64,000 nucleotides of DNA from Echinarachnius parma (Eukaryota; Echinodermata; Echinoidea; Clypeasteroida; Echinarachniidae): NCBI GenBank assembly GCA_037951105.1, contig JBAMJV010002081.1, positions 97,571 through 161,570 of the forward strand, read 5' to 3'. Every line of letters begins with the position of its first letter. Position 1 is the stretch's first letter. A model generated the notes under the pieces. The model was not told the DNA's origin and did no database searches. It saw nothing but the letters and a program-made list of their open reading frames with translations. Shown in pieces: positions 3,206-63,158 of this stretch. A program made the translations under genes and the position numbers.

Positions 3206-4249
3206 CTATAGGGCAATTCCACGGTAACGGAAGGACATTCAGACACAATTTTGGAACTTCAATCAAATAATTCCAGGATCCTGCTTTTGATTTTTTTTTC
3301 TAAATGGCATGTCTTTGATCCTTGTTGGGACACCTTTGATTTCCACTATTTCTAAAATTTTGACCGCATTATGTAAATTAGATATGGACACTAATGAGGC
3401 CGGTAACGGAAGGACGCCAAAATGGACATGGATTTTCAAGTTTTTTAGTTATGACCCAATCTCTGTGAAGTTACGAGGTTTATCATGTTAAGTTGGCTAC
3501 AAGTCAATTTCCTTATGTTCACAGAGTATAACACCACCTTTTAAGAAACATTATCTACATTGGTATATTTATTATGAGAAATTAATTACTCCAGTGTTCG
3601 GTAACGGAAGGACGGTAACGGAAGGACCTCTGAAAAGTCTATTGGAATTGTACAATAAAATTAATTTTGAAATTTAAAGACCATTTATGAGAAGGAAACA
3701 TCTCTTTTGTGGTCTAAAATGAGTTTGTATCATAGATAGCATATGGACATCACAAGCATTTACATTTCTATTTTTTTCTTACTATATTTCATGCTCCAAT
3801 GGCTCTTATTCATGGTCAATCCATGGTAACGGAAGGACACTCAGACACAAATTGTCAACTTTAAGAAAGACATTTTTAAATACTTGTGTTGTCAGAACAG
3901 TCTATTTTGATAACAATACTTCCAAAACATACAGTTTTAAGGTCCCATAATTTTTTTAATTTTGTTTATCTCCGCACATTATTGAATATGCATACAAATG
4001 AGGTCGGTAACGGAAGGACACCAAAATGGACAAGGTTTTGTTATCAAATCAGTTTTAACTAAAACTCTGTGATAGTAAATAATACAAAACATTTTAAGGG
4101 TACACATTTCATTCTCTGAAGGGTTAAGAAGAAATTACTTGTTCTTTGATTAAAATTTGTCCGCAGATATTTGAGTTATTTCACACAAAGCGGACCAATG
4201 TTCGGTAACGGAAGGACATAATGGACTATAATGTATGATATGACACAGT

Positions 4250-4273
4250 AGGGTCATTCCATGTCAAATCACC
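4250..4273 (+). mobile_element. End-like sequence AGGGTCATTCCATGTCAAATCA
   Basis: A sequence resembling the end of element A (AGGG-ATTCCA) but followed by a different word (TGTCAAATCACC). It lies inside element A where the regular iteron spacing is interrupted (4204 to 5176). I infer it marks a nested element of a related family. Its other end was not located. Confidence 0.4.
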
Positions 4274-4930
4274 TTTAAAAAAATAGAAAATTTTCATCGC
4301 AGCCCCCTTTAAATTTGCTAATATTTGGTATGTATGATATTTCAACCTTTAAAAGCGCAAATATTTAAGTTTTAGCCCAATCCGCCCAATGGTTTTGGCG
4401 CTATGGTCGATTCTTATGGGGGAGTTTTGTAAGAAATGGGCGTGGGCACCATTTTTTAAATGGCCATTGTCCATTAACCGTTGAGTCAATTTATTTTGTA
4501 AAGGTGTCATTGGACTGGGGATGTTATGTGCAATCCATTTATGCCATTTGTGTTCATGCATGAGCGAGTTTGGATACGATAACCTTTGACCTTAGATTTT
4601 GACCTTCCGTTTTACCTCGTGGATCAAATAATTTTGAGAATTTGTTTTGCTTAAATCTTGGCTTGATATAATTTCTACAACATATGAAAGAATTGGAGAT
4701 ATATTATTTCTTGCTTTTTCTACAGCCTTGTTTTAAGTTTGCTAATTTCATGTAAAATGTAATTATTTTAGACCTACACCCATGTCCAAGAATTCTATAG
4801 GGGTGTATTGTATTTAAAAAAAGACCTATTCAAAGTCATGATCAGAGCCTATTCACACCCTGGCTCACCACAGTTAAATAGACCTACTAATCCCCATAAA
4901 ATAGAAATCCAGACAAATGGCATCATGGTA

Positions 4931-5030
4931 CAAGGGCCCTGTTGCAGAAAGAGATAAAATCAATTGTGAGCCAGATCAAATGTTCTAAATGCACAAATCT
5001 GATTGGTTGAAACACAGAAAATTACTAGTC
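4931..5030. repeat. GGGCCCTGTTGCAGAAAGAG repeat copy
   Basis: Begins AGGGCCCTGTTGCAGAAAG and contains a CAAATCTGATTGGTTGAAA segment. A second copy in a different arrangement lies at 16,660-16,798. Interspersed repeat, class unknown. Confidence 0.5.
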
Positions 5031-5711
5031 TGACCACGCTATGCCACTGATAGCTGGCCATTGCAGGTATTGTCTCATTATTTTGGGTTTTCATATATGA
5101 GAGACCAATTTTTTTACATAAATTTTGTCATAATATGTATTATGAGGTACCTTGTCCATCTGTTACCATGTGTATGGTAACGGAAGGACATTTTCTTTTG
5201 TTATTTATTAATTAACGAAGAAACAATGAGTAATACAATTGTTAGCAATGGGAAGGCCTACTTGAACTTGCTTTGCACTGAAGATCGGTCTGCACTCTAA
5301 CAATTATGTGAGCCACAAAATTAAAAATATTGATTTTTCGGTAACGGAAGGACATTTTTATAGGCTGAAAATAAGAAGTCATTGAAGCATAACAAATCAA
5401 ATAAATCATACAAATTTACTATTTTACGAAATGGTCATATCTCAGGAGTCAGAATAATGGTTTTTAGGCTTAACTGGGGAAATATTAAACAAACACAGGA
5501 TCAAAACACTTTTTCACAAAAATGTAAAATTTGTGGGGTTCAATTTATTCAAGTTATTATAAAAAACAACTAAAATTATGTAAAACTAAAATTTTCTCAT
5601 TGAATTCCAAAAATATAGAATTTAAGCTTTGATTTGATACCAAATTTGTATCATAAAAATGCTTGCAAAATTTTTGGTCAAATGTCCACTTTGGCGTGGA
5701 ATTGCCCTATA

Positions 5712-6490
5712 TAAGCTTTAAAGGAATAGTTCAGTTTTGATTTAGAGGGCGCTTCGAGAAATGATTTTTTGTTCCCATTTTCTAAAACAAATTTATTTCA
5801 TAATCGATTACGATTTATAGATCGATATGAAACTTGTGCAAATATGAGAAAACTAGATAATAAATAACATACAAACTTAATTCGATTCCAGTCATTATAT
5901 ATGCAGCGATTCAGCTGACAATTTTAATATTTGTATTTAATTGTAACTGGTAAAACTTTTTGTCCGGGATACCACGAGATCGAAGTCAGAAAGAGAAGTT
6001 TACTTCGATTTCTACCGACTCGCTTTAACAACGTACGGTCTCCCTAAATACAGTACACCGTATTACCGCTAAAATATCAGATATGGTACGTATTCAAGTA
6101 CCGGCGGAGCTCGAGGGTCATAGTTGATGGTTCTCCTCACGGGCTTCGCGAGTTACATAATACCTATTCAACTGGGGGGGATGGATGAATAGATCCCCCC
6201 ACTTGAATGGGTATCAATGTCATGTCTACGCCCGTGGTTCTCCTCGTTTGTAATTCGGGGAACTACGCTTTTCCAGATATGGTACCATTTAAACCCATTA
6301 TTGATTTTTGCAAAACTGTCCTATCATGGTCATCATCAATTAATTTGGTGCTGATTCAATAATTCAATTCAGTTAAAGATGTGAGACTGTTTCTAGTAAT
6401 GTGTGTGTGTATTTTGTTACAGAAAGCTTCCAATATGTTGGAGAAAAGAAAAGAAAGAAGAAGGCAGTGGTAGGGGTTGGGGGAAGGGGG
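5712..6490. repeat. Interspersed repeat pieces
   Basis: Starts with an AAAGGAATAGTTCAGTTTTGA / GAGGGCGCTTCGAGAAATGA segment shared with copies near 25,385, 29,090, 36,770 and 44,755-45,800. At 5,980-6,010 a TTTACTTCGATTTCTACCGAC block matches the segmental duplication (7,790 and 10,440). At 6,172-6,215 there is a G7/C6 hairpin. No gene seen. Confidence 0.45.
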
Positions 6491-7916
6491 GGGGGTAGAG
6501 ATATGGCACGGTATGGTTGTCCATCTTGCTGGGGTGTCGATCCTATAAATCCTCCACTTTTCGCACCCTCACCCCACTGAAAATATGCAGGATAAACTGC
6601 AACATTGTGTACTACACATTTCACTCACTCAAACAGCCTTAGATATGTTACAGCGTGCATTTTAATGATGCTTTATATTACAATGATTTGTCTACTCTAA
6701 GTGAGAGCGCGCAACATGACAAAAACTGTTCAACACAAAAACACAACACGATTCACATCTACAATCCGCAGACACCTGCAAAGAACGATCCATCAAACAT
6801 AAATAGAAAAAGTAAAACAAATAGGACATGGTGATTAGCAGCGTGGTGAACATTTGTCATAAGATTTCATGTGATTTTTAACAATAAGTTAAATTCATTC
6901 GCATTATTATCAATTAGTTTCCTCCGCTTTTACTCCAAGCGATTCCCATTTTATAAAATAAATTTAAAATCATAATCGATTCAGACACATAGGCCTTGAT
7001 CGATATGCTTGTGTATACGCGGAAATTTAATAAATAAAATAATATAAACTATATCCTAAAATGTTTTATCAATATGGTATGATTGTACATTTGAAATAAT
7101 AAATTGACGCTGATCCGTGGTCGGGCCCCTGTCCCCTGATGACACAGGGCGGTGCCGGACATAAATAATCGTAATTGATTTTGCAAACGCATTTCTATAT
7201 AAGAGTTTACAAAAAAATCAACCAACCATATAACGACTTGGCTGTATCTAGACGGTTACGAATAGTTACATAATTCAGCAGCATTGATGCAGTAATTTCT
7301 GTTAAACTCCAACAAGTAACATTTATAAACAAAAATACAGACAAATACTTTTTGCATAGTTTTTGCATAAACAACATATTACTGAAGCTTATTAAGCACG
7401 TAACGTTAACAAAACTATACATTTCAATTATAATCGATTAAGAATCAACGATCGATAGAGCATTGCTATAAAAGTGAAAACTGATATTAAACAATGTTCT
7501 ATAAACTATACAATTGTTACATTTGAATTCACTGCAACAAACTCGACACATTATTACGAGACAATTAAGGTTGTGAGTGATAACTATATCACCTGGGATG
7601 ATAGTATTTCGAATATGAATATAAGTGTAAGTTATTTATATTAACTGTATTTATGCATCTTGCATTATATCGTATATTCATCACATTGTTCAATACTATA
7701 AATTGGAGAATGTTCTTGCAATTTATGCATACCTTACTTTTTACCAGGAGTAGAATGATAACAGGCTAGTTAGGAAGAAGAAGTTTACTTCGATTTCCAA
7801 CGACTCGCTCCGTATCCAAACTCCTAAGAATATAACCAAAGACAGCAAGCTTGCCCGCTACGGCGTGGCATGCATGGTGGCTAATCTAGCATCTTCACGA
7901 CTTTACTATCTTGATA

Positions 7917-8703
7917 AAGCCCGGCGCAGACAGAGCCGACTCGACCCGATCCGACTGGTTTTAATCAGGCTAGAGTTGGGCCCGGTCGGTCGGAGCAGAT
8001 TTATCGTGTTGAATCGGCCCCAACTGGCATCCGACTGTCTCTCGACTGGCAAAATCTGTGTCGCGAGGCACTAACAACTGAGCCGATCGGTCCGGATCGG
8101 AATAACAAGCAGTCGAGTCGGCTCTGCCCAGGTAGCAAACAAACGTTGGTCCATCGTTGGACCAACGTTGTCCAATTTTTTTGGCAACGTTGGTCCAACG
8201 TTGTCCAATTTTTTTGGCAACGTTGGTCCAACGTTGTCCGGCAACGTTGGACCAACGTTGCTTGTGTACGCCCAACCAACGCTGCTCCAACGTTGGCGAA
8301 AACAAAATACCAACCTTGGATCAACGTTGGTCCAATAAGTCTGTCCAACGTCCAACGAGTTGGCAAATTTCCAACGTTGGACCAACGTTGGCATCCAACC
8401 TGATTCTAACAATTAGATTGTGATATTTGTATGCGGATGTCCAACATTGATCCAACGTTGATCCAACATTGGACCAACGTTGGTATCCAACCAGATTTCA
8501 ACTTCCAAGGAGTTGCGAGAATCCAACGTTAATCCAACGTTGGACCAATGTTGGTATCCAACCAGATTTCTACTTCCTAGCAGTTGCGAAAATCCAACGT
8601 TAATCCAACGTTGGACCAACGTTAGTTTCCAACTTCCAACGAGTTTCGAGATTCCAACGTTGGTCCAACGTTGGCTTGCTACCTGGGTGTCTGCGCCGGG
8701 CAT
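7917..8703. mobile_element. TA-flanked MITE with GCCCGGCGCAGACA ends
   Basis: Flanked by TA on both sides (7915-7916 and 8704-8705). Its left end AAGCCCGGCGCAGACAGAGC matches the perfect MITE at 10,059-10,198. Its right inverted repeat is broken by the nested element at 8,127-8,687. TA target duplication suggests a Tc1/mariner-like nonautonomous element. No transposase. Confidence 0.7.
8127..8687. repeat. Nested CCAACGTTGG array
   Basis: Ends are inverted CCCAGGTAGCAA / TTGCTACCTGGG. The interior is dozens of overlapping copies of the self-complementary decamer CCAACGTTGG and variants (ATCCAACGTTG, TTGGACCAACG). It sits inside the right inverted repeat of the surrounding MITE, so it inserted later. 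Long reading frames on both strands are products of the repeat. Confidence 0.75.
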
Positions 8704-10058
8704 TATGTACTTGCAACAGCTCAAACTAAACTAGAACAAAACTATTTGATTAGAGACTGCAGGAAAAAATCAGTCGCTTCTTTCTGCTCATCGCCAGGAG
8801 TGCGCTCTTATAGAATGTTGTGATACCCCTGTCACATATAGCTACGCTCTCGCGCCGCTCCTAATCCCCATAATCCCCATTCATAAATTTGGCAGTGGGA
8901 GGCGAAGCATTGTCCGAACGATGATTAAATGACGAATGAATGGGAGGATTATCGCACATAGGTGAAAGGATATCCTCTCATGCATGGACATACAATGGCT
9001 CCCTAAACAAAAGAGCAGAACGCCAAAGACTCACGACCGCTTTCGACATGTCCAAAATGTCTTTTGCCGACCTAGTCTTTTGTTCAGCGAGCTATTGTCT
9101 GTGCATTCATGGAAGGATATCTATTGACACATGTGAGATAATCTTCCCATTCAGATCCTCATTGGACAAAAGATATTTTGCAGATACATTCCAGTGATTG
9201 TGATCAGCTATTGTCTAGATCGTGGTTAGAGCGTGGCTCTAGTCTGACGGCACACTTACTTTGTGACTGTTAGTTACTGCGTATGGTAATTTATTTCAGT
9301 CATAATATTAAAGGACCCCTCCAGAACGAGGTGGACTTGTCTGTCTATGCATTAACAGATCGATAAACCGTTTCAGGGCCTTTATTTTAATTTACTTTAC
9401 TCTATACTGTCGGCCTTTTAGGCATTAAAGGGTACCACCACCCAAATCTAATATTGTTATTATAGAAAGGTAACATCTTTAGTATTCCATTCCATCAACA
9501 GGTTCACAAAAATAGGTTTTCAGAAAAAATATATAATTGGAAAACGCATCACCATTCTAAAGCATGCGTTCATGCGGTCTGAATTGAGTAGACTACTGCG
9601 TGTGCAACAAGCGAATCGCCCGGGATTATATTGCCTACAAACGTACGCGTGAATAGCATTGGTGCACTCGCAAACCAGGAACCAGGAAATAGTAGTGGTT
9701 CCGTAAGTGGTGGAAATTAATTGCTTTGTTTATGAATTACACAATCCTTTGTAAAATGTTGGGTACTATTTGATATCACAAAACGGTACCAAACATATAG
9801 TAATGTGTTTTTATTTGCCCGGTGGTCCCCTTTAACCATGTATCTCTATTTGTTGTGGCGTGAGTCATACCCCCTGTGTATAGTGACCACTTAGTTTTGT
9901 AAAAATAAAATTATATAAACGTAACATTGAAAATATACATTTAATTTATAATCGATTAAGAACCAACGATCGATAGAGCTTTGCTATAAATGTGAAACCA
10001 AAATCATACAATGTCGTGTAAACTACCATTGTTTTCACATGTTAATTCACTGCAATTA

Positions 10059-10198
10059 AAGCCCGGCGCAGACAGAGCCGACTCGACCCGATCCGACTGG
10101 TTTTCAGTAAGGCTAGAGTCTTGAGGCAACGCATACCGAGTTAATCATGCTGAAAACCAGTCGGATCGGGTCGAGTCGGCTCTGTCTGCGCCGGGCTT
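10059..10198. mobile_element. 140-bp MITE with 50-bp perfect inverted repeats
   Basis: Starts AAGCCCGGCGCAGACAGAGC and ends with its complement. The repeats match over about 50 bases through the GGTTTTCAG block. TA is duplicated at 10057-10058 and 10199-10200. The perfect arms suggest recent activity. A diverged relative with the CCCGATCCG-CTGGTTTTCA block lies near 17,825. Confidence 0.85.
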
Positions 10199-10568
10199 TA
10201 CTCGACACATTATTGGAAAACAAGTATGGTTGTAAGTAATAACCATATCACCTATCCCATGGGATATTACTTACTAGAACATGTGGGTAATTGCAAGTTA
10301 TTTTTGAATAACTTTATTTATGCATGGTGCATTATATAACTTATTCATCACGTTGCAATACACGCTAATCCCATCTTCGACACCATTTGTCAATAGTATT
10401 ACTTTTTCCCGGGGTGGAGAGCAGACCAGTTAGGAAGGAGAAGTTAACTTCGAATTCTAATGACTCGCTCTGTATCAACACTCCTATATTATTCGAACCA
10501 AAAACATTACGGCAGGGTGATTAATTTAGAATCTGAACGATTCTACTATCTTGATCTTCATTTTGAAC

Positions 10569-10806
10569 ACTACTAAAAAAAAGTTAAGGACCACTTGATA
10601 TTTTGTGTATACTTTTTGTATGAGATATTTTACTCCTGCATGTCCTCAAACACATTGTAATCATAATGTATCTTGCATCATTTGTTTTATTCCAATGAGA
10701 ACACCATCTAGACAAACAAAAAATGAAAGAACTAGACCTCACTCACTGCTTGGAGAAAACAAATACAAGTTAAGAAAAAAGTGGTCCTTAACTTTTTTTT
10801 AGTAGT
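10569..10806. mobile_element. MITE with ACTACTAAAAAAAAGTTAAG ends
   Basis: About 27 bp of inverted terminal sequence (ACTACTAAAAAAAAG..GGACCACT and its complement) around a 180-bp interior. No coding potential beyond a spurious 65-codon frame. Confidence 0.75.
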
Positions 10807-10919
10807 ATATTTGAAACAGCTCCAACGGATTGGAGACGGCAGGAAAAACTCAGTCGCCTTTTCTGCTCAACGCTAGAAGTGCGCTATGGAATGCTGTACT
10901 TTGTAGTGTCTGTTATGCT

Positions 10920-11119
10920 GGGGTCCGCTCGCTAGTCATATAAGGACCGCTAGTCATAATGACCGCTATTCATAACGTGTAACTTCCTATACCTTATGCC
11001 ATTATGAATAGTGACCCCCTTTTCATTTTATGAATAGCGGTCCTTCACGTATAGGAAGGTACACGTTATGCATAGCGGTCCTTATGACTAGCGGTCCTTA
11101 TGACTAGCGAGGTTACCCC
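10920..11119. mobile_element. 200-bp hAT-like MITE with iterated AGCGGTCCTTATGACT
   Basis: Flanked by the 8-bp direct duplication GTTATGCT (10912-10919 and 11120-11127). Ends are inverted GGGGT...CGCTAGTCAT. The word ATGACTAGCGGTCC, or its complement, recurs several times inside. An 8-bp target site suggests the hAT superfamily. Confidence 0.75.
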
Positions 11120-12040: not shown

Positions 12041-12093
12041 TTAATAGCTGTTCCCATTCAAACATCTACTCACACTCACACATAATTCTTTTA

Positions 12094-12267
12094 CAGTAGA
12101 GCCTCATCATAAAGAGAGATGATATAACAAAATCCTCTTATAAGAAAGGTAATTTTGCTGGTCCCACCCTGTACACTCTCTTCTTGTCCCCGATATAACG
12201 AGATACCAGTATAACAAGGTAACATGCATGGTCCCAAAGTCGACCTCATTATAACGAGGTTCCACTG
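12094..12267. mobile_element. pogo/Tigger-like MITE (ATAACGAGGTT)
   Basis: TA target duplications at 12092-12093 and 12268-12269. Ends CAGTAGAGCCTC and GAGGTTCCACTG are inverted. ATAACGAG / ATAACAAG words recur inside. The CAGT..AACCTC end with TA target is typical of pogo-type elements. A relative lies at 38,892-39,058. Confidence 0.65.
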
Positions 12268-40037: not shown

Positions 40038-43000
40038 CTGGAAAAAAAAAGAAGGAAAGAAAAATAAAGACTTTTGTTAAATATCTTTTCATATCATATT
40101 TCAATGGCTATTTTTATCATATTTGCTCTATTCCAACATGACTGGCCTCAAACACAAGCACATGCTGCTTTCCGGAGGTCTCGAATATGATTTAGAACTA
40201 GATGGATCTTCGATTGCGCGCAATCGAAAATTATGCCTCCGCTATCACGCGATTTTAATATCAAGCCCAAATTAACATGCACTGATTTAATTTTTAAAAA
40301 TATTGTTCATATATTTTGAGTCCTGTGACCTTGACCATATGACCCCAATCTTTGAAGGCTCCCTAAAAAACATTCAGGTACCAAGTTTGATTGAAATCTG
40401 ACATTCAGTTCTGGAAATTTTGCCATTACAAGCCATTTTCGCATACATATTGAGTCCTGTGACCTTAACCTTTGACCTCATGACCCCTCAAATCTAATCA
40501 GATCAGTGGCACCTTGATATGTACACTCATACCAAGTTTGAAATTGATCCGTCAACCGGTTCTTGAGATATCGCAAGAACAAGGCATTTTTGCACATACA
40601 TTTAGTCCTGTGACCTTGACCTTTGACCTCATAAACCCCAAAATCTAATCAGATCATTGCCACCCCAATATCTACACTAATACCAAGTTTGAATTTGATC
40701 CGTCAACCAGTTCTTGAGATATCGCGAGAACAAGGCATTTTTGCATATATATTGAGTCCTGTGACCTTGACCTTTGACCTCATGACCCCTAAAATCTAAT
40801 CAGATCATTGTCACCCCAATATGTACACTCATACCAAGTTTGAAATTGATCCGTCAACTGGTTCTTGAGATATCGCGAGAACGAAAACGGGACGGACGGA
40901 CGGACGGACAACCCGAAAACATAATGCCTCCGGCCACTTCGTTGGCGGAGGCATAAAAAGTACACTAATTGTCTACTTCTGTTTTTGTTTTTTTTGCCAA
41001 ATAAATTGAACAGAACTAGACTGATTGATCGCATAATTTACTATTTTTCAGACCAATCAAGAAAAACAATGTTTAAATTTTGTTGGCATAGCGACATTGC
41101 GATTGATAGAAACTCTGTTTGCAACATCCCCAGTACTTATTTTCTTATCCTACATATTCTTAAAATTAAATAGTACCTCAACCAGATCCCAGAAGCAGAT
41201 GCGACCGTCCTCCGACCCACTCACTACGTGGCTATCAGTCTCATTCATGCAGCAGTCAATGCGGTAGTCTCGGTTTACGTGGCCCCGGTACTCGCCCAGC
41301 AGTTCACCACTGTCCTTGTCTAGCAGCCTGAGGGCGCTGTCTTGCGACGAGACCAGCGTGCACTGGCCATCCTTGGTGAAGCGAACGCAAGTTATGGGCT
41401 CTGGTTATCAGCAAGGGAAATGAAAGAGCAGAGACATTTTAAAATTATATTTAATAAAGTCAGACATACAAATACCCCTTTTTATTCCTCAAGAGCTCCC
41501 CACTGTCCCTGTCCAGCAGTCTGAGGGCGCTATTTTCCAACAAGACAAGGTTGCACTGGCCATCCTTGATGAAATAAACTCAAATAAAATGCTCTGTGAT
41601 CAGCAAGAGAAATGTGAATCAGAATGTCATCGACAGGTTTGATCAATGCACATGGTTGATAAAAAGGTAGCTCATGCCACCTCTCATGTTTCAGTTGGAC
41701 TTGTGATTGTGAGGGAGAGGACAAAAAAGAAAAGAAAAGTTATTTAATTTTAAAGTAATGCTCATGCTTTATGCACTCCAGTCTCAGGTACTTTCCCCAG
41801 TGAGAACACTAAGCTGTTCCCTTCTAAAATTTTGAAATACCCAAACAGTAGGCAATGGGTTGAAGTTAACTATTACATTTATAAACAACATTTTACGCTT
41901 TTACCTAACATGTGTAAGAATATATCATAACTTCTCTATTAAATCTAAAAAGTTGGACAAAAAATACTTTGAAATTGACTATTTGAGCAATAAAATGTTT
42001 ACATTTAAAAGGCTTTACGATCACTCACTTGAGATACAGTCTGCGTGCATCTGACCATTACGCAGATCATACCGCCTGACTCTCCCATCAACTGAACCAG
42101 TCAGAATCTCATAGTCAGAGACCTGGATGGAAGTAATAGTGTCTTTGGCCTCCTCCAGTGTTTGAACCGGGTCAAACTTTCTTGACCGGCAGTCCCAGAC
42201 CTTTACAGAGGCATCGATGGAGCCTGGGTTTTTATAGTGTATCATAAAAGAAATAGAAGAATGTAAACTTTGAGTTTGATTTCCACATTTCAACAGCATG
42301 CAATCTAAATAATATTGTTGACATTAAATTAGTATATCATATTGACATTTCTTGTACGCATTTAATGAAACAATTTTATGGGTGATGAATCCTCGCGAGT
42401 TACACAGCGTAAATAGATAGTTTTTTTGCTTTTACATTCATTATGAAACCCAATTGACTTTCTTTACATTGTTTACATTCTTCAAAAAGACCAATCGCTG
42501 TCCAAGACCACTGGTTTAGATGGCCGAGACAAGTAAAAAGTGGACCTTTCTAAATTTAGGGGAGGGGGGGGGGGGGGGGGGGGGGTGCGTATGCACCCAA
42601 TGCACCCCCCCCTCTGGCTACGGGCCTGCCACTGACCCATTTAATTACCTGAGAGAATGACGGTGGAGTCCTCATTGAAGCAGACACAGCTGACACTTCC
42701 TGCGTGGCCCCGGTATTTCCGCATCATCTTCCCACTGGCAACATCCCACAGTACTACGGTCTTATCCCCACTGCATGAGCACAGGTGAGCGTTGTCGATG
42801 GATGCCTGGGCGTCTAAGACCTCATAGCCGTGGCCAGAATAACTCTAAGTTGAAGTAAAAGAAAAAATAAGTAAAACAAGAAGTAAAATAAAAACACTTA
42901 ATGGAATGAAACTTATGAAAGTCAGTTAGGGCCTAGCTTTCAATCACTCCAGAGTTGAATTTATAAAGACATATCAATCGATCAGTATCAAGCATTTAAC

Positions 43001-52800: not shown

Positions 52801-55800
52801 CTACTCTATTTAGATGAGACAGGTGTGGTCAGAATTCAATTTCATGTCATATATTTTATGTATACTTGCAGGTCCGCTCAATGGGTTCAACATTGTAGAA
52901 GAGATGATTTGCGCAACAAGTCGCCAGATTACCTATACAAGAATTGCAGAATCTGCTCGGACCATTTTGAGCCATCACAGATATTGACTACTGGTAGATT
53001 GGTTTGGAATGCAGTGCCTACACTTTTTGACATTTCTAATCCGCCTAAGTGCCATCTACCAAGCAAACGTGACATCACACCTAGAAAAAGATCTAAACCA
53101 GGTATGTGGTTAATCATATTTATACAGTCAACTCCGCGTAAGTCGAGTCGCATATATCGAATAATCGCCTAAGTCGACAATTATAAAAAAGTCCCGATTT
53201 ATTGTCATACACTTGCGTGTGTTATTCCTCTGCATTTAAGTCGATTTTTGTAAGTCGAATTATCGTCTAAGTCGATCAAATTCCTGGTACACTTTCAAAA
53301 CAAAACATGAAATTCGCATCGCATTTATAAGTCGAAGCAATAATTTACTGACACACCTTAGCTCTATTCTTATCTCGCATCTCTCTCTTCCTCTCTCTTG
53401 CTCTCCCTTTCTCCTCTTGATACTTGATTTTGCAGGTACATACGCTTGCACATTAACCCCCTATTACGAAGTCGACGAGTCAAGCCAATGTGTATGTATG
53501 TAGTGCAGTACCAGTGCATGCATGCAGTGTATGTGAAACACACTGTGTGTGGGATTGATGATACGAGTGTGTGGATGATACAATGTATGAGTGTGTGTTG
53601 GTAACTGTACCGTACTGTTCGAGTTGAAAATACATGTGACCAAACCAAGGATCCTTGATGTGACCTACCAGTGACCCAGCTATCACCAGGCCAAGTGTGT
53701 TGGAAAGGGTGGGTTTTTATCAACAGATATAATGTTGAGTTCTGTGTACAGTATGAAAGTTTAGTTGTGTGTGTGTGTTTTTTTTCTTTTCTGGATGCCT
53801 GTATTGCAACGATCAGCCCGCTGTGCTAAGCTGCTATGACTAGCCAGCAGTGCGTGGTAGGGGCCACAACATACATTTACGTAAGTCGAATTTTCTTCGA
53901 CTTACGCGCAAGTCGAATATCGCCCAAGTCGAAGTGTTTCACACGGTCCCATCAAGTTCAACTTACGCGAAGTTGACTGTAGTTTCACTTTCGATTGACA
54001 ATGTTTATCATAAAATGCATGTATAGATTCCAAGGGCGTCAACAGCTACTAAAAAGTGGGGGGGACATTGCGAGGGAGCGAAGCGACTGAGGCGGGGAGG
54101 GTGTGGGAGGGGGGTGTCCCCCCTCCCACAGTAGGGAGATTTTTCATTATTGGACCTGAAATTGTGCAATCTGGTGCATACCCAAGACCTAATTTTTGAT
54201 TGATACACAATTGTTTATACATGTATGTCATAAATTGACTTATTGACCTCCTTCACCACATGATCGACCGATCTGAAATTTTTAACGAAAAAACAAATAC
54301 AAAATTTCCATTCAATCATCGCATGTTAATTGTCACTGTCGACGTCATTCTCCTCGTCAACCTCAATGTGAAAGGCAAGAGTTAAGAATATAAACAATGT
54401 CCCACGCCTCGTCATGGGCGTAGCTGCATATTTTTCCAAGGGGGCTGGCGTCTTTTGCCCGAATTTCGGGTGGGGGCGTGATCATGCGAGGGAGCGGAGC
54501 GACCAAACCCGAGGGCGCGATGCGCGCGAGGGGGGAGGATATCCCGCGAGGGGGAAGTTTTTGTAATTTCATTCAAAATAATGCAATCTTGTGCATACTT
54601 TGGAAGGGCAGTAACGGTTCCACCACCATTGTTGTGAGATGTATCGTGCAGACATTCGAGATTAGAGATTGATTCTAATGAGTCAGCCATAGTTATAGCT
54701 ACATAGTTATAGCTATAGTTAAAGCTACTAGCTGTACCCGCGGAAATCCGCGGGTTTTTGTGAGAGAGAGGCGATGATGACATAACGATACTTTAAATCT
54801 TTACTATTCCCAGAGTCATAATTTAAATAGTATAAGACAAAATAAACACGGGCGACTCAATCCCGTCCCACAACCCGTCGTTGGACGGGGCCCCGACGCA
54901 TTAGGGTCCCGTCAAACGATATCTGGCCAATGTGATAGACATATGCACACTATCACGGTGGTGTGGTAGCTCATTTTTCAATCTAGTTGGGTGAACAATT
55001 ATAAACACATATTTGGGTAGATTCAAGCATAACCGTATTTAATTTGCAGAGGTACTGCACTATGGGATCATTTTTTACAATAGTCTTTTAAAACCGATTT
55101 GACAGAATCTGTCTTTCATTTCGTGTTTCTGTCCGTAATTCTAGCATTCATTTCTGTAAATGTGTATGTGTATACTATTGGAAGTGATTTTAGTGACTTG
55201 TACATTCCACAAAAAATTAAGAGAACAGTCGTTTACTTTATTAAATATGTTTTATAACTCTTTAAAACGTCACGAAAAGCAGCAGGCTGAATTGTCGTAT
55301 GGACGCTGTGCAGATATTGGGCCCCCTACGTCGGCGGTGAAATCTAAGTGCTGTTTGGTGCTTCGGCTAGAATGCCTACGCGCATTCTGTGACACTGGCT
55401 TGTAGCTTTATGGCGGTCCTACTAATCACCGCGAACACCGTGAATCACTACGAAGCACTACGAAATCACTACTAAGCACTACGAAGAGCAAAAAGATAGC
55501 ATTTGGAGCGCATGTAGAAGTAGATGAGCAAAAATGCAAAGTGATGTTCACCAACTCCTTGCACTTGTACACTGTTTCGACGATCAATTGGATAATTCAA
55601 CATCTGAACACTTCAATAGTAAATATCATTTTAACGAAAGGGAAAGTCTGGCAGCTACCATAGTCTACCTCTACGTGCGCGCATTAAACGTAGTTTTTAG
55701 TACAGGGCGCTCTTCGCAGTGCAATCTTCGTCTTCGTAGTGCCTCGTAGTACTGCGAAGACATGCTCTTCGCGGTGCTTCGTAAGGGTATCGTAGTGCTT

Positions 55801-58800
55801 CGTAGTGTGCTTAGCAGTGCTTCGCAGTGCTTCGCAGTGCTTCGCAGTGCCTAGTACTGATCCTTGGCGATTAGTAGGACCCGCTTTATGGTATATAAAA
55901 ACCAATTTAAAAGTGGTTAAGAATCATTTTAAAACTTGGTTTATACAAAGAAAACAATATTTCTGGACATCTGATACGCATGAAATCCAACAAATATAAG
56001 CAAGTATTTTAAATAAATGTATTAAACATCACGTCGAATACAATGCAGAATTCATACACGAAATATAGGATTATGGGACCGAACGGCGCTTGGAATTGGT
56101 GCATCATTCCCGGCCCGACGCCGACGGAGGCGGTCTACAGACTCTAATACACTCGTGAGACTTGGTGTACACGGTACATGTGACTGGGTATACATGTAGG
56201 CAGAATCGGGACAGAAACACTCCCGTCAATCAGTCATTTCCTTCCTTATTCCAAAAAAAAAAATTATACTGTTGTACTCACCAGATGTGATTGATTTTCT
56301 CACCTAACTTTGCAGATCGTTCAGGATTCCCCGGTCAAAATATCGCGTCATGTTGGCCCTAGATATCCCAGTTTTTAAAATGGGAATGTTCGCACATCCG
56401 TCTATTGTACTGTACACGTCCATCCCGTATCACTTTACATACACAACATACGATCTTGTTTTGGTCGGAAGCCAACAATTTGCAAGCAAATTACGATAGT
56501 CTTAATTCAGGCGCACACAGCGGCACACGTGTTATTTCCGATTTGACAGGCATACGATAATGTGTGTAAGTAATTTACAACGTATCGATTCCAGGCTGAA
56601 CAAAGACTACATAATGAAAGGTCATTTCAGCAACACACTTTTCACGGTACTGTCCGTCGCAAGCATGTGCGATGATCAGCGCTCGACGCGACTGCATGGC
56701 AAATGAACGTGGAATATTGGCCGATTCATAACTGACCACTGGTCAAACTGACCCCGACCTGACCCAGACCACAAACCTCTATGGGTCATCACCAATCACT
56801 ACCCAAAGTTTGATGTTGGTGCCTCAATGCACTACGAAATGCATAGATGGACAGACAGACATACAGACAGACAGACAGACATACATACGTGATCGGCTAC
56901 TTTAGTATAGTAGATATAATCATATAGATACATTATGTAATACATATGAAAAAGTGGGGGTGATAAACGACACTATATCCCCCCCACTTTCAAAAGTGGG
57001 GGGGACATGTCCCCCCCCCCCCCCCCCCCCCCCCCCCCGTCCCCCGCCTGTTGACGCCCATGATAGATTCCAGTTTCACAAATGAATCCAGTGGATAAGG
57101 CCATGAAAAATAAATTGTTGGATTGGCGTAACCCGCCCGACCCTAAAAATACCGGCGCTATTGCACGCCGACCCTAGAGGTTTTTTCTGAATTTTATTTA
57201 AAAAAAATAAAAATAAAAAAAATAAAAAATAAAAAATTGCAATAGAATTTGGAATTTCGATGTGTTATGTGTGTGTTTTTGTGTATTTGTGCTGAAAAAA
57301 AAAAAAATCCCGACTGACCTACCCTAATTTTTGGTTGCCCGTTACGCCAATCAATTTTTGTTGGCCTAAGCCTTAATGACTATTATACTTTAGTTAGGAC
57401 AGGTCCCTGGGAATAGGCCCAGCATTAAGCCTTGATAATTATGACTCTCCCGCAATAGGGGGTGTGATCTAAATGCACCCTGCATACAGTATGGGGGCTC
57501 TCGCAATAGGGTTAGATTTTTTAAAAACCTGCAACTCGCATTAATTTAGGGGGCCTATTGAAAATGTGGTGAATGCACATGCGCATACGTGACTTGAGTG
57601 ACCACTCCCCCCTCCCCCCGGAATATACCAAGCTCAGCAATTTCTTTTTCTTACCCTAAGAAAATATTTATCTAAATGTGTGCAACATAGGATTTTCTCT
57701 GTTTCTATTTTCACTCATACATAGCATTCTCATACTTTTTCTGTTTGACTTGAAATCTTCACATATTGTTTATGACAGCATGGCAATGTTAAATAGGATT
57801 TTTTTTGTTTTATTTGTCTAATTTATATTTCATTTCTTCAAAACAATCCTACAAGTAATAATTGACAAAAATAGGTTGACCCTATTTATCCTTTCCTGAA
57901 ATGGCATTTCATTTCCCTTGTGCAATTTTCTTTAACAATTCAATTGCAGCTTCATCAAGAGGACTATTTGAACAAGTGGATCACACTTATGCAAGTGCTC
58001 CATTAAACAGCCAACCAGAGGAATCATGCAGCGGCAGCAGTGATGACCCAGTTGAAATGCAAGACACACTTCCAGACTCCCATTCAAACAAGTCCACCCC
58101 CTGCCCAGGTAAGTAATCATTTATTTTCATCACCTGGGCCCAAATGCATAAAACTTGGCGTTAATTGATATTTGCAGATTGTGTAAATTAATATATTGAG
58201 CCATTAAAATAAATTCATGTAAAATTTTATGCAATTGGGCACTGATCAACATAAAATAATAAAGGAATTACTTCACATTTACATAATTATTAAGCCTGAG
58301 TCATGTCGGATATATTGATGATGCTCATCAGCTGGATCATACGAAGATCCATCAGACAACTCCCCTGGAGTATCGGACTAACTTTGTGTGCACATCCGCC
58401 AATAATATCGTTCAAATGACTAGCAATTTTGCGCTTCCTGTTCAATTTCTGACTGTCAAACGAAGTAACGAACCAAGAATTTCTCGAAAATAACCACTCT
58501 TTAAAAGTAAATGATATCAATTGCCCCGTTTTTACTTGAATTCCGCTACATTAAGTGATAATCTTAATTTCTTTTTTAACATTTTTTTTTTTTTTTTTTT
58601 TTCGGGACACCGTTACCGATATAACGAAACCGGGTCCCGATTGAAATGGTCGGTAACCGGTGTGATCGACCGAACCGACTCAGCCTTAATAATTATATAA
58701 TACAAATGATAAAAGAATTAACAGTCAAACCAACATATTTTCAAGGAATATTCTGGTGATTCTGAAATTATTTTTTGTGTACTCAGAAAACATAGGAAAA

Positions 58801-61488
58801 AGAAACGTAATCATTGATTTAATTTCACTTCTTTTTTATCCTGTCAATTTACATTTTCACCCATGTTATGAATTATTATAAATAACAATCAATCAGTCCT
58901 TGAAATTCATGACACCTTGACCTTGTAACTGTTGCTTCTGTCAATGTGATGACAGTCTGTAAAGGTTCTGCTTCATTGATTAGCTGTTCATACTACTGTA
59001 TGTACGAATCGCGGCTCTACGCTTACCCATTTTTCCATTGACATGCGTGCTTACATGCGACGTCAAGTAAACAAATGATGGCATTATCTTAATAAGAAAA
59101 GAATGTACACCACAAGTCGCAATTATGCAAGGAAAAAAAAAGATAGTGCTTTATGAGAGAAAAAAAAACGTAATTATAATTTATCAACGACGAAAAAAAT
59201 AGTACTTGAAATATAGATGTCCTACGGTTCCCCCCCCCCCCTTCCCCCGTCACTTTTAAATATCATAAATCTCACAACGTGAATGCACAAATACCTTTTA
59301 TTTTCTTCTATTGTTCTCTTTTTTTTTTCAGAAGCAGTTCCAGATCCAAGCAAGACAAAGGGCAAAAAAAGTTCAAAGCGAGTCAAGATTCACCGTCTCC
59401 AAGCCAAAATAAAGACATTACAGGGATCACTCGAGAAATCTTCCAAGTCCAAATCAATCAAGGATATTATTTCGAATGCTTCCAAATATCTAGATAAGAC
59501 AGCACTAGATTTTTTCGCCAACCAGCTACGAATGGGGAAGCGACGTCTGAAGGGAAGGCGGTATACAGAACAGGATAAACTTATGGCAATTGACTTACAC
59601 TACCAGAGTCCCAGTGGGTACAGATTTTACCAAAAGATTTTTGCTCTACCGAATGAGCGGTCCCTCAGGAGGTGGTCTAAAGAGCAAGTAAGAGTTCAAC
59701 CTGGCTTTAATCAAACCACATTTGACATGTTGGCCCAAAAAGCAAAAAACAATGAGTGCAAGGGACAAGATCTGTGTACTCACTATTGATGAGATGAGTC
59801 TGAAAGCTGGACTTTACTATGACCTGCACAAGGACATCATTGAAGGTATGGAGGACTTCGGTTCTCTAGGGCGATCCAAAAATATTGCCACTCAAGCCCT
59901 TGTTTTCATGGTGAGAGGGATAGCCAGTAAATGGAAGCAACCAGTAGGCTATTTATTATCTAATTCAGCTACACCTGGTAGTACACAGAAGGTGCTCCTA
60001 CTTGAATGTGTAAAGAAACTAGAAGAGGCAGGTTTTACAGTAAAGATTGCTCTTTGTGATCAAGGATCAAACAATCAGAAGATGTTCTCTGAGTTGGGTG
60101 TAAACCCAAACAAGCCATATTTTGAGTGGAAGACAAATGATGGCAATATTCAGAAAATATATTGTATGTTCGACCCCCCTCATCTCTTGAAAAATGTTCG
60201 CAACAATTTGAAGAGACACATATTTGTTGTAGATGGTCACGAAATTAAGTGGGATTATATTGTAGAATTTTATAACCATGATTCCAAGTTACCCCTCAGG
60301 ATGGCTCCAAAGTTGACATCAAAGCACATAGAGCTTCCACCATTTTCATCTATGAGAGTATGTCTTGCTTCCCAAGTCTTGAGTCACAGTGTTGCAGCAG
60401 GTATATTAACATATTCCTCACTTGGCAAATTACCATCAGAAGCAGTTTACACTGCTGAACAAATGGACAAACTTTTTGATTCTTTCAATTCAAGGAGTTC
60501 AGTGAATGACCCCAAAGTTCACAGACGAGCTGTAAAATTGGGCTCAGTGCATGTTAACTTTTGGAAAGATTGTGTAGAATGGATTAAAAAATGGAGAGTT
60601 AAAGAAGGTTCAACAGAAAGAATTGCCTGCTTCAATGGATGGGTGTTGACTATGACTGCAGTTGTTCAACTATTTGATGAGTTAACCAGCGTTGATCATT
60701 TCAAGTTTTTACTAACAAATAGGCTGAACCAAGATTGTTTGGAGAACCTATTCTCTATTATTAGAAATAGGGGAGGGCACAGAGATAATCCTACTGCCAA
60801 CGAGTTCAGAGCAGCTATGAAACAAGTGATGTGTAGCAAGATGATGGCACCTATGGGTGGTCAGAATTGTGAAGCCGATAGCGATGGTTTTCTTGAATTG
60901 GCAACACGCAATCTGATCACACAGTCAAATCCTGAATGCTCAGATGATAGCACAGAACAAAATGAGGAGGAATTTAACAATCTTTGTAGTGATCTAAAAG
61001 ACATTGAAGATCAATCTCAAAAGAATGTGATCGTGTATGTCTCTGGATACATTGCAAAAAAGACACTTGAAAAGCACAACAATTGTGTAACTTGTAAGCA
61101 AGCCCTTCAGAACGATGCCATATTTATGGAAGATCCATCCCAATTGATGTTGCATTCCAAAGCATATTGTGTGGATCACTCAGACTTTGGCGGTTTGACT
61201 GTACCTAGTGACAATTTCATTTGTTTCATAGGAGTGTGTGAGCAAGTTTTTGTGAGATATTTTAACCATTATTTTCACATCAAGGCAGTGGGGAAGAGGA
61301 TATCAGAGATGATTCAACATACAACAGACACCAGAAATCTTCATCTGGGGCTCTGTAGTATGGAAATGGAGCGTGATCTCATTTCCTTTTTTGTGAGGTT
61401 TCGGTTACATGCAGCTGTGAATTTTTATAACAAGAGTTTGCTGGACACGAAAAAAATGTCAGAAAGGTCAAACAAAAAAGAGAAATAG
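46535..61488 (+). CDS. THAP9-like (P-element-family) transposase gene, four exons, one frame break
   Basis: Exons: 46535-46638, 52872-53101, 57950-58108 and 59332-61488, canonical borders, phases 2, 1, 1. The product would be about 882 residues (human THAP9 about 903). It has a THAP zinc finger (C9, C14, C63, H66; AVPTLF at 82-87), a coiled coil (HRLQAKIKTLQ), a helix-turn-helix region (RRYTEQDKLMAIDLHYQ) and an RNase H-like core. Candidate catalytic acids are D in TIDEM (59788), D in CDQGSNN (60058) and E in CLENLFSIIRNRGG (60742), with FDPPHLLKN between. The D-to-E spacing is 228 residues, like P element and THAP9. The frame shifts by one within an A6 run (59744-59749). That is a sequencing error, an allele or a disabling mutation. 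Long, repeat-filled introns with intact splice sites suggest a resident host gene rather than a mobile copy. Confidence 0.85.
47695..47765. repeat. (GT)n microsatellite
   Basis: Interrupted GT repeats in intron 1 of the THAP9-like gene. Confidence 0.8.
48006..49190. repeat. Tandem array, about 13 units of about 95 bp
   Basis: Each unit starts near ACAGTCAAACCTGTGTATAG, continues TGACCACC...GGCCGCTAT..ACAGGTGACCTTTATAGACAGG. Units near 48,006, 48,103, 48,193, 48,287, 48,380, 48,474, 48,568, 48,665, 48,762, 48,857, 48,952, 49,050 and 49,155. The CAGTCAAACCT start is that of a pogo-like MITE, so the array is probably an amplified element. Diverged single pieces occur near 11,541-11,600 and 22,240-22,400. 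Confidence 0.85.
49707..50412. mobile_element. 706-bp hAT-like foldback element
   Basis: 8-bp target duplication GTATGAAC (49699-49706 and 50413-50420). Inverted ends TAGTGCTGTAAC. Subterminal clusters of GATCCGATCAT / GATCGGATCGGC words at both ends. The middle (about 49,868-50,258) is one long hairpin. An A tract of about 50 bases sits at 49,820-49,870. No ORF. Confidence 0.85.
50421..52870. other. Rest of THAP9-like intron 1
   Basis: No further exon found. Sequence is mostly unique-looking and AT-rich, with no clear inverted-repeat element. The exon 2 acceptor is ACTTGCAG at 52864-52871. Confidence 0.4.
52872..53101 (+). CDS. THAP9-like exon 2 (C-terminal half of THAP finger)
   Basis: Completes the Arg codon and encodes SAQWVQHCRRDDL, YLYKNCRICSDHFEPSQ, VWNAVPTLFDI and a basic tail PRKRSKP. 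Contains the C-x2-H zinc ligands and the AVPTLF box. Donor CAG|GTATGT, phase 1. Confidence 0.88.
53125..53979. mobile_element. 855-bp TA-flanked element with iterated AAGTCGA
   Basis: TA at 53123-53124 and 53980-53981. Ends CAGTCAACTCCGCGTAAG and CTTACGCGAAGTTGACTG inverted. TAAGTCGAAT-type words recur near both ends. The form matches pogo-like MITEs. It starts 23 bases after the exon 2 donor, which is left intact. Confidence 0.78.
54031..57062. mobile_element. 3.0-kb hAT-like element with nested insertions
   Basis: 8-bp target duplication ATAGATTC (54023-54030 and 57063-57070). Inverted 15-bp ends CAAGGGCGTCAACAG / CTGTTGACGCCCATG with one mismatch. The interior holds a G-rich ATGGGCGTAGC segment (about 54,413-54,560), a repeat starting CTAGCTGTACCCGCGG at 54,727 and probably ending in the ACAGACAGACAGACA run and TTTAGTATAGTAGAT near 56,920, and the 469-bp element below. 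No transposase recognised. Confidence 0.75.
55414..55882. mobile_element. 469-bp element related to the 44,091 transposon
   Basis: 9-bp target duplication GCTTTATGG (55405-55413 and 55883-55891). Ends CGGTCCTACTAATC / GATTAGTAGGACCC inverted. Arms contain CACTACGAAGCAC words, as in 44,091-46,381. Nested in the hAT-like element. Confidence 0.8.
57071..57949. other. End of THAP9-like intron 2
   Basis: Contains a pair of inverted GGATTGGCGTAACCCGCCCGAC / ACGCCAATCAATTTT words (57,120 and 57,350) around an A-rich core, probably another small element. Otherwise nothing. Confidence 0.4.
57950..58108 (+). CDS. THAP9-like exon 3 (linker)
   Basis: Acceptor CAATTGCAG, donor CAG|GTAAGT, phase 1 at both ends. 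Encodes a Ser/Pro/acid-rich linker (SSRGLFEQVDHTYASAP, EESCSGSSDDPVEMQDTLP). No domain. Supported by frame continuity and splice sites rather than homology. Confidence 0.72.
59332..61488 (+). CDS. THAP9-like exon 4 (coiled coil, HTH, catalytic core)
   Basis: Acceptor is a long T tract then CAG. The first frame runs through EAVPDPSKTKGKK to FDMLAQKAKNN, the homologous continuation lies one base over from about 59,750 and runs to TAG at 61486-61488. The second frame alone (588 codons from an ATG at 59722) holds all three catalytic acids and a C-terminal VSGYIAKKTLEKHNNCVTC region. Confidence 0.88.
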
Positions 61489-61539
61489 GAAATTGATCAA
61501 AATTTCTCACATTTAAGTACTTTGGTCTTAGCACCAGGT

Positions 61540-61675
61540 TTGGAAAGAAGGATGAAATTATGGCATTTGCCTTACACTACCAGAGTCAGAATGTGTATTG
61601 TATAGTATATTGTAATTGTTTGACCCCCTCATCTCTTGAAAAATGTTTGCAACAATCCAAAGAGACGCATATATT
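61540..61675 (+). pseudogene. Internally deleted copy of THAP9-like exon 4
   Basis: About 60 bases after the stop, AAATTATGGCATTTGCC and TTACACTACCAGAGTC match 59,578-59,610. The sequence then jumps to GTTTGACCCCCTCATCTCTTG..AAATGTTTGCAACAA, matching 60,165-60,225, so about 550 bases are missing. Resembles the internally deleted derivatives common in P-element families. No splice site or long ORF. Confidence 0.75.
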
Positions 61676-61785
61676 GCATCCTGTTAACGTTACCATTTAT
61701 TTTATTTCATTTATTTCAACCATTATCAAACAATACAAATATACATTGAAAAATCATAATATGAATACATATAACATTGTGAGAA

Positions 61786-61791
61786 ATTAAA
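61786..61791 (+). promoter_or_regulatory. Weak candidate polyadenylation signal
   Basis: ATTAAA about 300 bases beyond the THAP9-like stop codon. No AATAAA is seen nearer. Low information. Confidence 0.2.
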
Positions 61792-61845
61792 TTGTGGTTT
61801 GGATCCTCGAAAAGCAATATATGCTTATAATTGGGGACCATGTAC

Positions 61846-63158
61846 GGTCACGCTGTTACTTTTCACGCTGTCACGCTGTTACTTTTTGGGTAACAGCGTG
61901 ACGCAACCTACTTTTTTTTATAAATATCTCAAGAATCGTTGGATGGATTCTGTTCAAACTTTGTACAAGACATGTATTCAGAGGTATGGATTATCTGATA
62001 CATTTTGGGGCCATGAGGTCAAAGGTCAAATGTCACAGCTAATTAATATGCAAAGAATATATTATTCTCAAGATATTTCAAGAATCCTTAAAGGATGACA
62101 TGATAATTAATACTGGTATGCGTTCAGTGAAGTAGATGACCTGATTATAGAATTTGGTCATGGGGTCAAAGGTCAACAGGTCAAATTATTGTAGTTTATT
62201 TTTTATCTCACAAAAAAATGCCAGAATTAATGTTAGAAAGAGTACTGTAGATAAAAGAAAATTCTATGAAAATGTTTGGAACACAGGTCAAAGGTCACTC
62301 GGATAATTACCAATTCAAACACAAAAACTTACTGACATTGAAATCATGTTACATGAAACAAATCACTTGTAGATATGCACTGTGCCACATAAAATTAAAC
62401 ATTTGTATGCTAATTTGAGAAATAAGGTCAAAGGTCAGATGTCAAAGGTCTAATATTTCATTGTTGCAATTAAGTTTGTATTTTGGGTTTGCTATTTGAT
62501 GGTTCCTCAAACTAAATTCTGAAAAAGATAAGAATTTCAGTTTTGTCCAAAAACATTTTTGATCAATAGAGGGCGCTAGGCTGCAAATTTGTGTCATGCG
62601 AACCATCATTTCAGAGCATCTGGGTTATATTACCCATTCATCTAGTTCTGTAAAGATTCTGGATGACTACAATCAAAATTATCTAATCTTATTCATCTCA
62701 TCAATATCTCCCATATATATAACATGTACAATTCAGAGGTCACGCTGTTACCGTCACGCTGTTACCGTGCACAGATACGTTTATGATATCATATTTACTA
62801 TGAACATTGGATTTTTTCTACATTTTTATTTGGATGTTCTAGCTTGATGTCTAGTACAAACAATCAATGTGACAAAATTGCAAAATGTTCCTGTAGTTCA
62901 CAGAGTTTGCTTAGTTTCTTACCATGTAAGAAACCCATGTCTTTTTGCCGTCACGCTGTTACCGCAGATATTGATATTCATAATTCATAATTTAGTGGGA
63001 ATTTTGATTTTCTTTCCTATTGTAAATAATTAGTAGGATAGTGGTAACAGATGCATATCAAAATTTGGTTCTGGACATTTTTATTTTGTGAGTTATTTAG
63101 ACTTTCATCGTGAGAAACACCCTCCTACCGTCACGCGGTTACCTTGGAATTGCCCTTA
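61846..63158. mobile_element. Iteron-bearing DNA element 'B'
   Basis: Right end TTGGAATTGCCCTTA is the complement of the AGGGCAATTCCA end of element A. The 14-mer GGTAACAGCGTGAC (or complement) occurs near 61,846, 61,870, 61,890, 62,738, 62,752 and 62,949, with a GGTAACCGCGTGAC variant at 63,129. From the right end the spacing is about 180, then 197, then a 14-bp tandem pair, the same as element A from its left end. The left boundary is uncertain. GGTCAAAGGTCA words recur at about 62,018, 62,165, 62,285 and 62,427. Confidence 0.65.

Follow-up and report, generated by a model that had tools for sequence, protein, structure and literature searches.

Fixed-position iterons with differing core sequences in a transposon family of Echinarachnius parma

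How can the repeated sites of a transposon take on a new central sequence throughout while their places and outer bases stay as they were? The question is raised by two elements, A and B, in a stretch of 64,000 nucleotides from the echinoid Echinarachnius parma (the window; C2080:97571-161570 of a 1.2-Gb assembly of 14,790 contigs, on which the genome-wide pattern searches were run). Both carry iterons of 14 bp with the framework NNNAAC-N5-GAC, which sit at near-fixed positions in elements bounded by GGGCAATTCC. The original prediction attributed the differing five-base cores either to a switch in the specificity of a DNA-binding protein or to gene conversion between iterons. The switch fits somewhat better, because position-specific left halves of the iterons survive the change of core, and gene conversion constitutes the main rival. 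Transposase-binding sites that follow a shift in specificity are the best reading of the family, and the one towards which we lean.

The pattern itself is confirmed and proves larger than first described. The doubled iteron GGTAACN5GACGGTAACN5GAC (the doublet) occurs 1096 times in the assembly vs 0 for the reversed pattern, and the end pattern AGGGCAATTCCA 3464 times vs 35. In the window, GGTAACN5GAC is found at 15 sites vs 0.29 expected, a number reached in 0 of 100 shuffles. Six core types are distinguished: A (GGAAG), B (AGCGT), C (ACCGT with GCCGT), D (GCCGT), E (ACCGG), and F (ACCGT).

Architecture of the elements

Features of element A are as follows.
3211..5707, + strand: element A, complete class A (GGAAG) non-autonomous transposon of 2497 bp, GGGCAATTCC...GGAATTGCCC
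3207..3210, no strand: left target duplication TATA
5708..5711, no strand: right target duplication TATA
3223..3236, + strand: iteron at position 13 (GGTAACGGAAGGAC)
3402..3415, + strand: iteron at position 192
3600..3627, + strand: doubled iteron at positions 390 and 404, then CTCTGAA
3825..3838, + strand: iteron at position 615
4006..4019, + strand: iteron at position 796
4204..4217, + strand: iteron at position 994
5154..5167, - strand: inverted iteron with deviant core AGATG, near the inverted-site place of other classes
5176..5189, + strand: iteron at position -531 (other classes about -538)
5340..5353, + strand: iteron at position -367 (other classes about -372)
4249..5022, + strand: another repeat nested in A, with the end GGGTCATTCCATG, not an iteron class (outside A at L098:2744-3532, 89% identical)

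All nine GGTAAC-GGAAG-GAC sites first reported for this element are present, together with an inverted GGTAAC-AGATG-GAC at 5154 that had been left out; the AGATG site occurs in the window and in four other copies where the neighbouring site was found. The iterons at 3825, 4006, and 4204 form a diverged second copy of the first trio. Element A belongs to a large set of young copies: 45 others are listed at 95-98% identity, 35 of them nearly full length, from the best 40 of 2545 candidates scored, a sample in which older copies are not represented. The sequence at 4,250, once suspected of being a further specificity class, is the end of the nested repeat, which also occurs outside A in contig C3194. 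This end GGGTCATTCCATG resembles the family end GGGCAATTCCACG.

Features of element B are as follows.
61847..63155, - strand: part, with the doublet end, of a class B (AGCGT) element; 97% identity between 61870-63156 and the complete copy L009
63130..63143, - strand: iteron at position 13, core CGCGT (also in the C3194 copy)
62950..62963, - strand: iteron at position 193
62739..62766, - strand: doubled iteron at positions 390 and 404
61889..61902, + strand: iteron of the inverted pair
61870..61882, - strand: iteron of the AGTAACAGCGTGAC type, the limit of homology with those non-autonomous B copies that were seen
61847..61859, - strand: further iteron, absent from the non-autonomous B copies seen whole

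Element B had been taken as a whole element at 61,846-63,158. This extent is only part of a longer element, 61870-63156 corresponding to 1.29 kb of the complete 1.8-kb copy L009, and a second end was not found in the window. Its reported six GGTAAC-AGCGT-GAC sites and one with CGCGT do amount to seven sites, although only four of the six AGCGT sites have the full GGTAAC and two begin AGTAAC. Five non-autonomous B copies (L009, L014, L016, L027, and L029) stop matching the window at the iteron at 61870, where the window cluster runs on by one more iteron; such a break would look like the internal deletion of a longer element. Tandem GGTCAAAGGTCA-like repeats occur inside class B elements (window 62013-62461), at 40457-40876, and near P-transposase fragments at C5315 (L056, L057). 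We take these repeats to resemble nuclear-receptor DR1 sites.

Iteron positions were read in complete copies (one of class A, two of B, four of D, two of E, and two of F). Counted from the doublet end, the sites lie at 13, 193, 390, and 404, and on the side of the other end near -557 (inverted), -538, and -372, in all cases to within about 11 bp; A, E, and F copies have extra iterons beyond these shared positions. Class C has the left-end positions of the other classes, and its copy L073 also has the inverted pair and one further site. The spacing of about 0, 180, and 377 bp with a 14-bp doublet followed by CTCTGAA, as originally described, is present in both A and B. Their shared end is likewise present, but the end proper is GGGCAATTCC, and the base that precedes it belongs to a 4-bp target duplication.

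This duplication is found directly outside GGGCAATTCC in 24 of 24 copies checked (23 and element A of the window), comprising 11 class A copies and 13 more, which belong to classes B, D, and F except for the unclassified C122. The ends of eight of the 13 non-A copies, plus three more, were picked with AGGGCAATTCCA, which favours TNNA duplications and leaves their length unaffected. Two traits of known groups are sought in vain: the target duplications are of 4 bp in all copies checked, not of 7-8 bp as in the P superfamily, and the long terminal inverted repeats of Galileo/Foldback-like elements are lacking, the exact inverted repeat of element A being 17 bp including duplication bases. A further branch may be represented by L117/L118 (C122:16405-17961), which have GGGCAATTCC ends and the 4-bp duplication and differ in the next bases (ATAAATATGTC).

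Sites whose place and framework hardly vary at either end, one of them next to the terminal repeat, look like transposase-binding sites (e.g., in P, hAT, and CACTA elements). For this reason, it is quite unlikely that the iterons are instead recognised by a factor of the host or by a VANC-like anti-silencing protein, the switch being an escape from or a recruitment of that factor: near-fixed sites at both ends, one of them directly beside the terminal repeat, are as expected for a transposase. Such a role would agree with the CpG in the motif of all six types, by which methylation could matter, and VANDAL/VANC works in such a way according to the accessible parts of the reports (PMC5735166, PMC10398659).

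Each of the six type motifs contains at least one CpG, and several deviant sites resemble CpG decay (ACTGT, GCCAT, and TGTAAC for CGTAAC). Such decay could be the source of the C/T first base and of the ACTGT or GCCAT variants; as the cause of the core switches, it is ruled out for the C/G and T/G differences.

Core classes and their relations

Among 100 listed of the 1096 GGTAACN5GAC doublets, 75 are GGAAG/GGAAG, 24 AGCGT/AGCGT, and one ACCGT/GCCGT, and none mixes GGAAG with AGCGT (A with B); exact AGCGT doublets number 322 in the assembly. A search with G barred at core position 2 gave eight matches at seven places, with RCCGT or near (class C), one of them already among the doublets listed. 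When the search was anchored on GACCTCTGAA, again with G barred at core position 2, 714 matches were obtained vs 45 for the control. Most of the 100 listed read TGTAAC-GCCGT (class D) or CGTAAC-ACCGG (class E); TGTAAC-ACCGT (class F and a D variant) accounts for some of the others, and a few are non-iterons. Doublets that fit GTAACRSCGTGAC twice number 781, and the 100 listed comprise 60 GCCGT/GCCGT, 33 AGCGT/AGCGT (overlapping those of the GGTAACN5GAC search), four GCCGT/ACCGT, two ACCGT/ACCGT, and one AGCGT/GGCGT; AGCGT was not found mixed with GCCGT (B with D) among them. No relatives were found in viral contigs, either by the doubled pattern or by protein.

The discrete, homogeneous core classes that had been foreseen are nearly realized in three cases: 152 of 153 intact-framework iterons are GGAAG in class A (23 loci), 27 of 27 are AGCGT in class B (7 loci), and class D is homogeneous at 29 of 32 (5 copies). 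There are about six types, not two, and classes C and E are mixed. The counts for A and B derive from 30 loci of the doublet search, with the core of the query left open, and are limited to the first 1100 bp and to iterons with an intact GGTAAC...GAC framework; one place figures twice, as L020 and L021. The table of iterons by position, from which the class D count is taken, leaves out L071 and L130, for which orientation was not possible, and L072, and some of its position-forced cells are not true iterons (e.g., L099 at 193, which has its iteron elsewhere).

The copies compared are 98-99% alike within types A, B, and D, about 97% within E, and 91% within F, so that homogeneity within a type, taken by itself, says little. 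It would equally suit old subfamilies that each spread from a founder, with neutral differences between their cores. A founder effect of this kind is nevertheless very unlikely as the whole explanation, since neutrality leaves it unexplained why all the differences fall in one or two of the five core columns at every site.

This concentration becomes apparent when cores are set against flanks, from which iteron and end columns were removed. At the left end, flank identity amounts to 90-93% among those copies of B, C, and D that were compared and to 91-93% between E and F (two F copies, 91%). Between the lineages A, BCD, and EF the left flanks are 44-56% identical; C and F share only 53-54%, yet ACCGT is common to both. 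The pairwise flank alignment of A with B (49%) lies within the shuffled range (mean 45%, maximum 54%), that of A with F equals the shuffled maximum, and that of B with F exceeds it. Because A-B flank identity is within shuffled noise, the presumed homology of class A rests on the shared ends, the site positions, and a few short conserved stretches (e.g., near the right end).

Across seven sites, core columns 1-2 separate B (L009) from D (L120) in 14 of 14 cells, and the remaining 21 cells show no difference; between E (L124) and F (L126), column 5 differs in 7 of 7 cells, and the remaining 28 agree. The flanks of both ends differ at 114 of 882 columns between B and D (26/371 left, 88/511 right; Fisher test of core vs flank, 9e-5) and at 59 of 882 between E and F (Fisher, 0.01). 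The strength of the contrast is the concentration in columns, not the total. B and F differ in a single column, at 7 of the 35 core cells, and so do D and F, at 46% left-flank difference; since no other column is affected, the rest of the core has evidently been kept better than the flanks. B, D, and E are each one core column away from ACCGT, which, being common to C and F, is taken as the probable ancestral core. The left-flank tree is compatible with this ancestry: B forms a group (support 0.96), and the C copies are scattered.

Mixed copies may indicate how the cores changed. All 96 doublets of the E/F form comprise 66 ACCGT/ACCGG, 23 ACCGG/ACCGG, seven ACCGT/ACCGT, and no ACCGG/ACCGT. Position 193 of E/F elements shows 77 G and 23 T in 100 listed of 119 matches; 67 of these 100 places were tied to their doublet (44 G/TG, 17 G/GG, and 6 T/TT), and the other 33 could not be. 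ACCGG accounts for 2 of 8 iterons in L130, for 7 of 10 in L125 (with two ACCGT and one decayed), and for 10 of 10 in L124, copies with flanks about 97% identical (966-974 columns). L130, aligned from a hand-set start, differs from L124 in 6 of 8 column-5 cells at 3% flank difference (Fisher, 4e-8; a comparison chosen post hoc), which again is not expected from a founder effect; L123 aligns poorly past its left end. In class C, GCCGT stands at 404 in most copies and beside the inverted site, with ACCGT or decayed forms elsewhere.

Mixed cores had been set beforehand as grounds for refuting the original prediction. They are found in C and E, and class A keeps its AGATG site, so strict classes fall. 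We read the mixed C and E copies as probable intermediates of a stepwise change, by which strictly homogeneous classes are ruled out. The change looks stepwise because C and E cores are mixed and because near-identical copies carry ACCGG in 2/8, 7/10, and 10/10 of their iterons.

The main rival to a specificity shift is concerted evolution, in which a changed iteron is copied over the others by short-tract gene conversion, gap-repair template slippage, or unequal exchange, without any change of protein. We regard it as rather doubtful. Iteron number does vary at the doublet, with triplets in its place at C78, C175, C3613, and C1459, and the five non-autonomous B copies that stop matching at the same iteron (61870) show a sign of recombination. 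Iteron 820 of L124 differs from that of L125 and L130 in first base and core together, as copying would give, although the C/T change of the first base is explained equally well by CpG decay. The iterons, however, are mostly isolated 14-mers amid unrelated flanks, and 14-mers are short for ordinary gene conversion. Moreover, the left half of site 13 is kept while the core differs (GATAAC in three E and three F copies; GCAAAC in five D copies), so the tracts would have to be very short. Repeated point substitution under a changed preference is preferred because left halves are kept across the core difference.

The P-type transposase gene beside element B

Next to element B lies a gene with the following parts (ORF, open reading frame; HTH, helix-turn-helix).
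52872..53101, + strand: exon with most of a THAP DNA-binding domain, the first ~17 profile positions missing (PF05485, E 2.4e-10; splice sites from the sequence)
57950..58108, + strand: possible exon between the THAP and HTH exons (splice signals only; no domain match there)
59332..59789, + strand: exon with a P-type HTH domain, its frame out of step with the next ORF (PF12017, E 2.9e-09)
59692..61488, + strand: ORF with the RNase H / GTP-binding domains of a P-type transposase (PF21787, PF21788, PF21789; Drosophila P transposase 6p5a, E 4.2e-34)

As far as the gene beside B is concerned, the domain set of the P superfamily (RNase H with GTP-binding insertion, P-type HTH, and an incomplete THAP) is present, with the THAP exon 6 kb upstream of the HTH and RNase H / GTP-binding ORFs. 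The gene ends about 360 bp from the innermost B iteron, and the B iteron end lies downstream of it, likewise in C3194. The latter holds the only other close copy of the gene among the P-type matches (97%); because the flank beyond the B end is shared as well, the window and C3194 copies appear to be alleles or a duplication. A segment of ~2.2 kb (window 54728-56913) is absent at the same place in C3194 and is perhaps a mobile insertion, and C3194 carries ~0.8 kb extra at window 58881/58882. That the B-side gene is the source of the iteron elements is likely but unproven.

The genome-wide transposase search, made with the P-type protein only, gave 49 matches, 30 of which were extracted as loci together with ~1.5 kb of sequence to either side; three of these are the B gene. 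Among the 27 non-B loci, only L050 shows a doublet, and L059, L063, and L066 have one weak match each. The L050 piece, a truncated class D element in a probable intron, is taken as a chance neighbour and not as the partner of the adjoining P-like gene. C3641 and C11709 (L069, L070), which are 99% alike over 8.75 kb and are probably one locus or a recent duplication, carry a P-type gene 60-61% identical to the B-side gene, preceded by a THAP-like exon and free of internal stops over 787 and 786 amino acids. No iterons occur in the 9.5 and 9.0 kb fetched around it, and it was rejected on that ground as the transposase of the other classes; it is possibly a retained host gene.

Elsewhere in the window, overlapping ORFs at 7918-8730 with a WTNV-like unit repeat on both strands probably represent a minisatellite.

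A shift in specificity and its precedents

From the observed core types, site positions, target duplications, column-specific differences, and mixed copies we infer transposase binding, an altered DNA-binding (perhaps THAP) domain, the direction of change, and selection through mobilisation as its driver. The elements would form a large family of mostly non-autonomous cut-and-paste transposons, with 7-10 iterons of 14 bp as putative transposase-binding sites. Framework (NNNAAC...GAC), spacing, and orientation would be kept, and the five-base core would set which transposase variant recognises the element. Once the base preference of the protein shifted, better-matching elements would be mobilised more, and the same substitution might become fixed in iteron after iteron. 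Homogeneity is not required for spread, because the commonest E doublet is mixed and A keeps its AGATG site. From the putative ancestral ACCGT, the cores AGCGT (B), GCCGT (D), and ACCGG (E) would have arisen by a change in one column each, with GGAAG (A) more distant. A fuller proposition is only tentative. It holds that a P-type lineage with 4-bp duplications acquired no fewer than four distinct end codes, of which three derive from a single ancestral code. Each would have been produced in place, by the same base being substituted again and again until all sites had it, once the DNA-binding domain of the transposase had changed, and part-recoded intermediates would survive.

Several observations weigh against a shift in specificity, beginning with the joint change at iteron 820 and the mixed states of the commonest E doublet and of class A. 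L130 stands for one copy only, and its end is decayed. At the right end, the flanks of B and D are 82-83% identical, and this 17% difference weakens the B/D contrast, for which the right end alone gives a Fisher value of 0.04 (core vs flank). Tree support is weak for B/D among C (0.39-0.80) and for E inside F (0.68-0.74), and the tree of a 1.1-kb alignment groups the F copies L126 and L129 together. As to the gene, its THAP domain is without its start, its HTH and RNase H frames are out of step in the window copy as well as in the C3194 copy, and no 5' end was recognised in the window or in the part of C3194 retrieved. No transposase for classes A, C, D, E, or F was found among the 27 non-B P-type loci (of 30 examined, 49 matches).

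Fixed-position iterons with a series of core types were not found described in the literature searched, most subscription journals being outside its scope, and the same search yielded nothing closer on the coevolution of subterminal repeats and transposase; among the text matches listed for GGGCAATTCC or AGGGTCATTCCA, there is no transposon title. The original claim that no family with such behaviour is known was still too strong, as VANDAL provides a precedent (PMC5735166). In the accessible parts of the reports on Arabidopsis VANDAL elements, family-specific motifs and an element-encoded DNA-binding protein, VANC, have differentiated together; VANC is an anti-silencing protein whose motifs belong to tandem repeats subject to expansion and contraction (PMC5735166, PMC10398659). 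The likeness lies in related transposons that each have many copies of their own short motif. In contrast to VANDAL as described there, the present sites are mostly single, keep near-fixed distances from the two ends, and seem to be altered in situ, one base after another. Autonomous VANDAL copies are marked by a Mutator-like transposase and a VANC gene.

Galileo, a P-superfamily transposon of Drosophila, likewise has several sites inside its ends, bound there by the THAP domain, and subfamilies in one genome; the THAP of the G subfamily bound K ends weakly and N ends not, according to the available part of the account (PMC3688188). Galileo differs in its long inverted repeats and 7-8-bp target duplications, as against 4 bp here, and the parts of the sources consulted describe no series of core types at conserved positions (PMC3688188, PMC4168063). 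P-superfamily elements in general are reported, in the portions available, to make target duplications of 7 or 8 bp (PMC10983969, PMC4168063). The B-side gene shares its THAP, HTH, RNase H, and GTP-binding domains with the Drosophila P element and zebrafish Pdre2/THAP9, whereas these have 8-bp duplications, other termini, and, as far as the accessible text of the source extends, no such iteron array (PMC10983969).

VANDAL/VANC and Galileo may thus be regarded as precedents, and the fixed-position series of core types as the new part. It is an open question how a protein can change along with its many binding sites and still function, and for this question the present sites have the merit of being alignable one by one. 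A single genome seems to preserve the start, the end, and the steps between, from which the sequence of site changes could be followed and binding preferences put to the test. Should the P-type gene prove to be the source, a superfamily described with duplications of 7-8 bp would gain a lineage in which they are of 4 bp. If true, a shift of this kind would show how transposon families that share a genome gain independence from one another.

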